Positions 24,898 through 41,625 of a stretch of 64,000 nt of DNA are shown here, piece by piece (the first letter of the stretch is position 1; each line of letters opens with the position of its first letter). A program made the position numbers and the translations under genes. The notes beneath the pieces are model-generated. The model saw only the letters and a list, made by a program, of their open reading frames with translations, had not been told where the DNA came from and made no database searches. The DNA is taken from NCBI RefSeq assembly GCF_000832985.1, contig NZ_CP009920.1:744001-808000 (forward strand), read 5' to 3'. This DNA comes from Priestia megaterium NBRC 15308 = ATCC 14581. GTDB lineage: Bacteria > Bacillota > Bacilli > Bacillales > Bacillaceae_H.

Positions 24898-24934
24898 AAT
24901 GGTTATTCATCAAGAACTTTCAGTTTTTAATCGA

Positions 24935-25204
24935 AAACACAGCGATTGGGAGTAGTAGAAGCTTATTATTCGGTCAAGAGAGCTACGGGTTGGTGTAACG
25001 TAGTCCAATAATACTTTGAACTCGCCCAGGAGTGGTAATTCAGAAAGAATGCAGAAGTATTCTCTAAGTTTTAACGTCTAACCTTCGTTATCAGGTTTTA
25101 AGCAGGGTTCTTTAAGAGCCAACAAGAGTGGTACCGCGGTTAGCTAAAGCTTATCGTCTCTTCTCTCATTTGATAATGAGGTAGGAGACGATAAGCTTTT
25201 TTTA
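24935..25204 (+). promoter_or_regulatory. T-box riboswitch, probably leucine (CUC) responsive
   Basis: The leader holds the hallmark T-box bulge TGGTACCGCGG (25129-25139), followed by a terminator (AAAGCTTATCGTCTC from 25146, pairing with GAGACGATAAGCTT ending 25198, then a T run). In stem I, TATTATT (24964-24970) pairs with AATAATA, and TGGG pairs with CCCA below it. The specifier loop then holds AGTAG on the 5' side and GAA-CTC-GCC on the 3' side. Placing the specifier at 25021-25023 gives CTC (leucine); a one-base shift would give TCG (serine), so the call is probable, not certain. Uncharged tRNA would antiterminate and switch on the permease. Confidence 0.85.
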
Positions 25205-40735: not shown

Positions 40736-40894
40736 TTATCTCGCGGGTTCAAAAGTTTTACAGCCAGGTTCTTCCGTTTCAGAAACATGGTGACTACTTT
40801 CAGGACTCACAACGTAAATGGACTCTGCACTGCATTTATTTCCGGATTTCCAATACATGCACTCATTCACTTCACATAATACACCTTGGGCCAC
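40736..40894 (-). CDS. DUF1540 small cysteine protein
   Basis: A 52-aa protein translated from GTG at 40894 behind a perfect AAGGAGG. It reads MAQGVLCEVNECMYW then KSGNKCSAESIYV and ends EPGCKTFEPAR. The pattern C-x4-C-x2-W-x2-GN-x-C...C-x-TF is that of DUF1540, small metal-binding-like proteins common in Firmicutes and often linked to sporulating species. Four cysteines (7, 12, 21, 45) could bind zinc. Too short for most gene finders. Function unknown. Confidence 0.85.
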   Translation of the reverse strand: MAQGVLCEVNECMYWKSGNKCSAESIYVVSPESSHHVSETEEPGCKTFEPAR

Positions 40895-40962: not shown

Positions 40963-40993
40963 AAAAAAACCGCTTGTTTCTCAAGCGGATCTT
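40963..40993 (-). terminator. Terminator of the SAM-riboswitch-controlled gene
   Basis: On the minus strand CCGCTTG, loop, CAAGCGG and seven T, immediately after the stop at 40995. Confidence 0.9.
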
Positions 40994-40994
40994 T

Positions 40995-41339
40995 TTATTG
41001 CGTGTGTTCAACATACTGTTTTTTAGCTAAATATAACTCACGGCTCAGCGTGATCCGCCGTTCTCTCAAGTGCCTTAATTTAGCCTGAAATTGTTCGTTA
41101 GTTGGCTCTTCTTGAATTAAGCGATACGTAAAAGAAATATCTTCATTTAACTGTTTAAAATCTTCCCATATCTCTTGAACTAGGGCGGATTGTTTTTCTT
41201 CAAATGAACGATTTTGCTGCGTTTTTAGCACGGCTAAAATTTCTTGCTGCCACGTTTCGTCGTTTATTTCTTTTGCTAATAAGTATAGATCTAAATAATC
41301 GTCAATGCATAAAGCCGTTTGTGTATTATTCAATGTCAT
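40995..41339 (-). CDS. Unknown 114-aa protein downstream of a SAM-I riboswitch
   Basis: I do not recognise this protein. It is acidic-to-neutral and helical: an N-terminal part (LCIDDYLDLYLLAKEINDET), then a long predicted helical or coiled-coil region rich in Glu, Gln, Lys and Arg (FKQLNEDISFTYRLIQEEP, then RHLRERRITLSRELYLAKKQ). It has no signal peptide, no membrane segment and one cysteine. Start choice: ATG at 41339 overlaps the GGTGAT ribosome element, so the TTG two codons later may be the true start. It is the only gene between the riboswitch and a strong terminator, so methionine/SAM status should control it. Confidence 0.7.
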   Translation of the reverse strand: MTLNNTQTALCIDDYLDLYLLAKEINDETWQQEILAVLKTQQNRSFEEKQSALVQEIWEDFKQLNEDISFTYRLIQEEPTNEQFQAKLRHLRERRITLSRELYLAKKQYVEHTQ

Positions 41340-41341
41340 CA

Positions 41342-41505
41342 CCTTTTCTATACGAAATGTTTCTTCCTAAGAAGAGGATTTCATCATAGAAAAAGATTCC
41401 TCTTCTTATCTGTCAGAGCTAGGCTATGCTGGAATTAGCACCATTCAATAATTGTGGTTGCTGAGGCTTCAAAGGGCCAGTCCCTCCACCTCTCTAGATA
41501 AGAAT
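41342..41505 (-). promoter_or_regulatory. SAM-I (S-box) riboswitch, possibly acting on translation
   Basis: On the minus strand the aptamer (41505-41403) shows P1 TTCTTATCT / AGATAAGAA, then AGAGGTGGAGGGACTGGCCC, TGAAGCC, CAGCAACC and GGTGCTAATTCC, all hallmark S-box blocks. Downstream, AAGAAGAGGA (41407-41398), which shares five bases with the P1 3' strand, pairs perfectly with TCCTCTTCTT (41378-41369). The loop between them holds CTTTTTCTAT (41395-41386), complementary at 9 of 10 positions to ATAGAAAAGG (41351-41342), the ribosome site of the next gene. No T run follows the first hairpin. The layout suggests SAM binding frees an anti-Shine-Dalgarno. Confidence 0.9.
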
Positions 41506-41625
41506 ATTTCGTTTTTAAATTATTTCTGACCATTCTAATATGTTTTATAGGTTACGTCAATAGATTTTCAATAAAAAGAAAAAAGAAGTAAAATATGGTA
41601 TGCTTTCATAAAGGATGGTGAGCAC

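Follow-up and report, generated by a model that had tools for sequence, protein, structure and literature searches.

A SAM-I riboswitch with a probable translational platform upstream of an unnamed gene family in Priestia

The leader of a small gene of Priestia megaterium carries a complete SAM-I (S-box) aptamer followed by two mutually exclusive hairpins, one of which covers the Shine-Dalgarno (SD) sequence. Comparison of this leader with its relatives suggests that it is probably a SAM-I riboswitch with OFF logic acting on translation. We infer SAM binding and regulation in cells because the aptamer is conserved. The riboswitch type is already known; the gene family found behind it is unnamed.

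The S box and its two alternative hairpins

The gene is located on the minus strand of the 64-kb stretch of DNA analysed, hereafter the window. A cmscan search matched the aptamer model RF00162 at 41403-41504 (-), with 94.5 bits, where the gathering score is 44.4, and an E-value of 2e-21. The match spans model positions 1-108, thus the full aptamer, confirming the original prediction that all S-box blocks are present. It is one of the 14 SAM-I aptamers of the 5.75-Mb genome to which the window belongs (G000). Read 5' to 3' on the minus strand, the leader is organised as a promoter-like site, the aptamer and the two alternative hairpins. The features of the locus are the following:

41532..41560 (-): promoter-like site TTGACG-17-TAGAAT, 10/12 matches in a consensus scan
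41403..41504 (-): SAM-I riboswitch aptamer (S box), RF00162, 94.5 bits
41398..41408 (-): putative antisequestor, 5' arm, 11-bp perfect pairing with 41368-41378
41371..41395 (-): putative sequestor, 5' arm of a 22-pair hairpin (folding z -2.54), contains the anti-SD at 41386-41395
41368..41378 (-): putative antisequestor, 3' arm, mimics the P1 5' strand and also belongs to the sequestor
41342..41366 (-): putative sequestor, 3' arm of the 22-pair hairpin, contains the SD AAAAGG at 41342-41347
40995..41333 (-): gene for a protein of probably 112 aa, with homologues in 5/10 genus genomes, its own included
40970..40988 (-): intrinsic terminator 3' of the gene, 7-pair stem with 5 G-C, then TTTTTTT

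In the promoter-like site, five Priestia species share the whole -10 hexamer and bases 1-5 of the -35 hexamer; the scan gave 3 sites in the region versus 2.5 expected in shuffled sequences. A gene coding for a DUF1540 protein is found downstream of the S-box gene (40736-40894, -), with the terminator at 40970-40988 between them. A T-box leader is present elsewhere in the window (24933-25164, +, 118 bits). The leader region is matched by 41 plasmid records, 24 of them from Priestia.

The 5' arm of the antisequestor is formed from the P1 3' strand and its extension, and overlaps the former, which lies at 41403-41410. Its perfect 11-bp pairing (41408-41398 with 41378-41368) substantiates the proposal that the P1 3' strand can pair with a downstream segment. 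In the sequestor, 22 pairs join 41395-41371 to 41366-41342, interrupted by a single bulge and a single internal loop, and the SD is enclosed in this hairpin. Within it, the anti-SD 41395-41386 pairs with 41351-41342 over 10 bp, of which 9 are Watson-Crick and one is G.U, in agreement with the 9/10 complement of the ribosome site that had been noticed in the loop. Segment 41378-41371 is common to sequestor and antisequestor, which are therefore mutually exclusive, and P1 excludes the antisequestor. The leader combines an SD that is paired when P1 is closed with an exclusive antisequestor that uses the P1 3' strand, as in a translational sequestor. The antisequestor is complete at position 41368, ahead of the synthesis of the SD strand (41352-41342), so that a decision during transcription is possible.

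When SAM is plentiful, its binding would close P1, which would occupy 41410-41403; the downstream RNA would then form the long sequestor, hiding the SD, and the protein would not be made. At low SAM the P1 3' strand would pair with 41378-41368 before the SD strand is transcribed. The antisequestor would break the sequestor, so that initiation at TTG 41333 could use an exposed SD. The product would presumably be wanted under shortage of methionine or SAM.

The fold of the 69-nt RNA that follows the aptamer reaches -18.9 kcal/mol, which 2 of 200 shuffled sequences equalled or bettered (z -2.54). Taken by itself, the antisequestor stretch stands out less from its shuffles (10 of 200; z -1.80). 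Folding with P1 forced or forbidden, proposed with the original prediction, supported it in part. Taking GAAAAG, one base off AAAAGG, as the SD stretch, the full leader has this stretch 2-4% unpaired in all five Priestia species when P1 is forced and 35, 29, 41, 14 and 66% unpaired (G000, G007, G001, G003 and G009, respectively) when P1 is forbidden, but the minimum-energy fold keeps the sequestor with P1 forbidden in G000 and G003, the two leaders inspected. The unconstrained full leader has the SD stretch 4-14% unpaired. A shorter fold, restricted to the RNA that starts with the P1 3' strand, has the antisequestor at minimum energy in four of the five species; in G003 the sequestor takes its place. 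Equilibrium folding gives no clean switch. Since the sequestor persists with P1 forbidden, only folding during transcription could bring about the switch, which we assume to be kinetic.

The SD is also masked in two of eight other S-boxes of G000, so the window leader is no exception in this respect. These eight, retained from the 13 others after exclusion of five with no clear nearby start, have the SD unpaired at 0.02-0.78, with two at 0.12 or below. The same survey gave values of 0.04 or below in 7 of 10 leaders of the gene family, with the SD of L094 taken from a start index off by one base; for G003, L029 and L031 (0.50, 0.24 and 0.54), it was a purine stretch farther downstream that was scored.

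Relatives of the leader and origin of its platform

The window protein has matches in five of the 10 genus genomes, its own included, and a homologue with 93% identity in Priestia aryabhattai B8W22. One further match, N-terminal, is found in the taxonomic family (G012). A profile search of the order extended the family to 21 of 397 genomes and a wider profile, run on the class, to 174 of 398, many through an N-terminal motif only; some class genomes hold 3-5 family matches. In tblastn searches the protein had no match in phages and a single weak one in plasmids, from Paenibacillus, at a place where no genes are listed.

The Rfam search covered 53 family loci, comprising the 5 of Priestia, a further 17, 20 of the 28 numbered L046, L047 and L054-L079, and 11 new ones. 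An S-box is found directly upstream of the gene in 18 of the 53, from several taxonomic families. The aptamer precedes all four other full-length Priestia homologues (93.0-95.5 bits) and 13 homologues outside the genus, so that the S-box is kept in homologues, a point on which the original prediction depended. The 18 leaders have three types of platform. Five combine a terminator with an SD-sequestor (G056, G054, G170, G212 and G808), the five of Priestia have the sequestor only, and in eight, all of taxonomic family f15 (G337, G393, G356, G811, G809, G814, G812 and G807), the SD abuts P1. In these eight the P1 3' strand GATAAGAA continues directly into the SD; all are tandem, with a second S-box 83-123 nt farther upstream, and between the S-boxes of several pairs a stem with TTTT behind it can be made out by eye (unscored). 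An S-box lies 0.47-0.69 kb upstream of the gene in three loci (G211, G813 and G108). In G501 a truncated remnant of 48.2 bits (L065 82-178) directly overlaps the homologue start, and in G408 an FbpA gene comes between the S-box and the homologue, which is cut short by a stop. No S-box was assigned to the gene in the remaining 29 of the 53 loci.

In several f15 genomes (L036, L037, L084 and L095) S-boxes occur as groups of three within roughly 1 kb. The first of the group in L036 and in L037 precedes a short ORF resembling a lone LysR-type DNA-binding domain (HTH_1, confirmed for G337), while the second and third precede the family gene. Riboswitches of the c-di-GMP-I class are found at L042 171-253 and L039 2992-3075, near S-box-less paralogues of f15 genomes.

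The original prediction had seen no T run after the hairpin and named a standard terminator in the leader as the observation that would speak against it. No T run follows the hairpin, and no terminator was found in the window leader by the built-in scan or by a separate scan of our own, both of which look only for a stem followed by a T-rich tail. A terminator of this kind in the Priestia leader was rejected on these two empty scans. Our scan likewise gave none in the five Priestia leaders. It detected a terminator within the 250 nt after each of the 13 other S-boxes of G000, the best-scoring ones of L007 and L011 being at +130 and +207, and within 110 nt in the five long-platform leaders outside Priestia (L029, L030, L031, L032 and L094). 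The built-in scan found that of L031 and none in L029, L030 and L032, we believe because the U tract is absorbed into the stem, which our scan forbids.

The terminator stem of L029-L032 and of L094 extends beyond the U tract and reaches into the SD. The Priestia leaders are without the G-C core and the U tract and retain the SD-pairing part. Across six divergent leaders the anti-SD strand tracks the differing SD strand: when duplex energies were summed over the six representatives, 4 of 720 permutations (identity included) and 0 of 265 derangements were as good as the true partners, and 10 of 720 permutations when the A and U tracts were trimmed, some swapped pairs being individually stronger than the true ones. 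Among the Priestia species 3 of the 22 sequestor pairs vary, through a two-sided change of G-C to A-U that keeps the pair in G003, a change of A-U to G-U, and the loss of one pair in G007. Two of the 11 antisequestor pairs vary, one to G-U and one by loss of an end pair. Since the five Priestia leaders hardly differ, the covariation seen inside their clade amounts to one event. The tree, which carries a long-branch warning, places the Priestia copies in one clade (100/100); the labels of the G356 paralogues L083 and L083b were swapped in it, leaving that clade unaffected. The Priestia platform seems to share ancestry with the terminator plus SD-sequestor hairpin of its relatives. The simplest reading is that the terminator half was lost in Priestia, a direction of change that we infer.

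Barrick and Breaker (2007; PMC2258182), in the portion of their text drawn on here, describe transcription, dual, translation and direct-translation platforms of SAM-I riboswitches, with transcription attenuation dominating in Firmicutes. In contrast to that norm, the window leader has no terminator that the scans could find, while the other S-boxes of its genome have one in 13 of 13 cases. It shares with the general scheme of translation attenuation outlined in that portion a full aptamer, a sequestor and an antisequestor. The likeness to the dual transcription/translation platform is found in L029-L032 and L094, whose terminator stem reaches the SD; however, the rule stated there for dual platforms places the terminator at 10 nt or less from the start, whereas the G-C core of these relatives ends about 25-35 nt before it. 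The Priestia leaders have the SD-masking part only. It is the eight f15 leaders, and not the window platform, that resemble direct-translation SAM-I riboswitches, which according to the same portion have the ribosome binding site within the 3' side of P1, and tandem ones, for which the part used of another source counts 164 doubles and one triple (PMC9481103). Their G-rich SD part abuts P1, unlike the direct-translation type, where it is fully inside (PMC2258182, same portion).

The missing terminator could also be the mark of a decayed transcription attenuator, whose aptamer no longer controls the gene and whose SD pairing is an ancestral remnant. This would fit the G-C core and U tract kept by relatives and missing in Priestia, the dominance of the sequestor in the minimum-energy folds of G000 and G003 with P1 forbidden, and the occurrence of control loss in the family, where 35 of 53 loci are without an S-box directly upstream and the G501 aptamer is truncated. 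Decay is nevertheless unlikely in view of the constancy of the leader: among the five Priestia species 3/102 sites vary in the aptamer and 7/69 in the platform, versus 26/113 third codon positions in a gene with 45/339 variable sites. The compensatory change in the sequestor and the retention of the SD-pairing base though the terminator is gone argue in the same direction. An action of SAM mainly on transcript elongation or stability, through a non-canonical terminator or nuclease access and with SD pairing in a secondary role, has a slightly smaller chance of being correct. Such an action would be in line with the terminators that follow all 13 other S-boxes of G000 and are retained in 5/5 relatives of the window leader, but no Priestia leader has a stem with a T-rich tail, the only type of terminator to which the scans were limited. 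We favour the anti-SD control of translation put forward originally, which draws support from the lack of a detected terminator, the exclusive hairpins and an SD only 2-4% unpaired with P1 forced.

The gene product and its methionine-rich neighbours

The gene was originally described as coding for an unknown 114-aa protein. The family is indeed unnamed, but translation probably starts at TTG 41333 to yield 112 aa. The ATG at 41339-41337, which would give 114 aa, is present in four of the five Priestia species and lost in G003, where GATGACA is changed to GAGGACA. The TTG at 41333-41331 lies 8 nt after AAAAGG, with codon and spacing kept in 5/5 species; for these reasons the 112-aa product is preferred.

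The window protein has nothing above cut-off in Pfam or NCBIfam, where family matches are sub-threshold only. Its score to Pfam DUF7667 (PF24704) is 15.3-15.5 bits, below the cut-off of 27, and 19 of 21 family members match this entry weakly, at E up to 0.1 (best 2.2e-4). A sequence search of the PDB gave a best E of 0.048, to an entry named Sc-apCC-2-MCL-1-4. The AlphaFold2 model built with 21 family sequences has helices at 10-22, 26-75 and 80-111 (pLDDT 85.5, pTM 0.54); Foldseek returned 279 PDB matches at E up to 10 and 0 at E up to 0.001. The modelled product is, in our reading, small, helical and coiled-coil-like, and no active site can be recognised in it.

Many homologues are found beside genes of a second family, coding for proteins of 70-83 aa with 40-48% Met. 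Its 15 aligned members have 19 invariant columns, including C-D-E-M. The loci are listed below:

Met-rich loci, part 1: L029, L030, L031, L035, L037, L054, L057, L062
Met-rich loci, part 2: L064, L067, L070, L072, L093, L095, L098

A CDEMM motif is conserved in the Met-rich proteins, whose genes are located 1.5 kb or less from the family gene, either following it on its own strand or facing it in convergent orientation. Searches of Pfam and NCBIfam with the Met-rich family gave nothing at E up to 0.01, and its model is a helical hairpin (pLDDT 78.9, pTM 0.42). The search of the class detected the Met-rich family in 20 of 398 genomes, each of which also carries the family of the S-box gene. All 20 are among the 60 genomes with a family match at E up to 1e-9, an association (Fisher 1.7e-18) that ignores kinship, 15 of the 20 genomes coming from one taxonomic family; in 40 of the 60 the Met-rich gene was undetected. 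The two genes are 0.5 kb or less apart in 17 of the 20 genomes. G501, G592 and G725 have their listed family matches on other contigs, with no homologue in the stretches fetched. Other searches found the Met-rich gene as neighbour of a homologue also in G170 and in f15 genomes, broken in G393. Upstream of the Met-rich genes strong SDs are seen by eye, and at 10 loci no known RNA element was detected before them at E up to 0.1, besides the S-boxes of the family gene and its neighbour. No Met-rich gene was found in the 64-kb window, in G000 by the class run that gave the 20 positives, or in the 10 genus genomes by a run without any positive. The partnership is thus not directly applicable to the genome of the window.

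Other contexts also involve S-boxes. An operon of G543, positioned as follows, is headed by an S-box:

S-box-headed operon of G543: L104 3567-8589 with L061 327-447

It encodes, after the S-box, DUF2292, an FMN reductase, the homologue, an ABC permease, an NMT1-like binding protein, an ABC ATPase and TauD, which we read as a sulfonate/taurine set. Fur_reg_FbpA genes adjoin homologues at L109 3704-3904 and L105 4645-4851; in L109 the S-box belongs to the FbpA gene and the homologue behind ends early at a stop.

The family could well be a general helical adaptor used in many contexts, its tie to methionine being local to some lineages, although we lean slightly against it. The 35 of 53 loci that have no S-box directly upstream, the genomes with 3-5 matches, the homologues adjoining FbpA genes and the failure to detect a Met-rich partner in Priestia all point that way. 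Against it stand the S-box directly upstream in 18 of the 53 loci, from several taxonomic families, and the restriction of the Met-rich family to genomes that have the family of the S-box gene (20/20). We propose only tentatively, and consider rather doubtful, that the family is the SAM-gated half of a methionine-handling system. Produced only at low SAM, it would mobilise, chaperone or repress a partner protein with 40-48% Met that serves as a store or buffer of methionine; Priestia would have kept the SAM-controlled half and direct it at another target. Judged from search results alone, we recognised no description of a methionine reserve or of a link between Met-rich proteins and S-boxes, nor of this gene in the literature on riboswitches of B. 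megaterium or Priestia, for which subscription journals were thinly covered.

With the riboswitch described here, the SAM/methionine regulon of the Bacilli gains a protein family that had not been studied. The leaders of its homologous genes use three expression platforms, and one clade has apparently lost the terminator and kept the masking of the SD. Should the link to the Met-rich proteins prove correct, it would point to bacteria keeping a reserve or buffer of methionine that a riboswitch controls.
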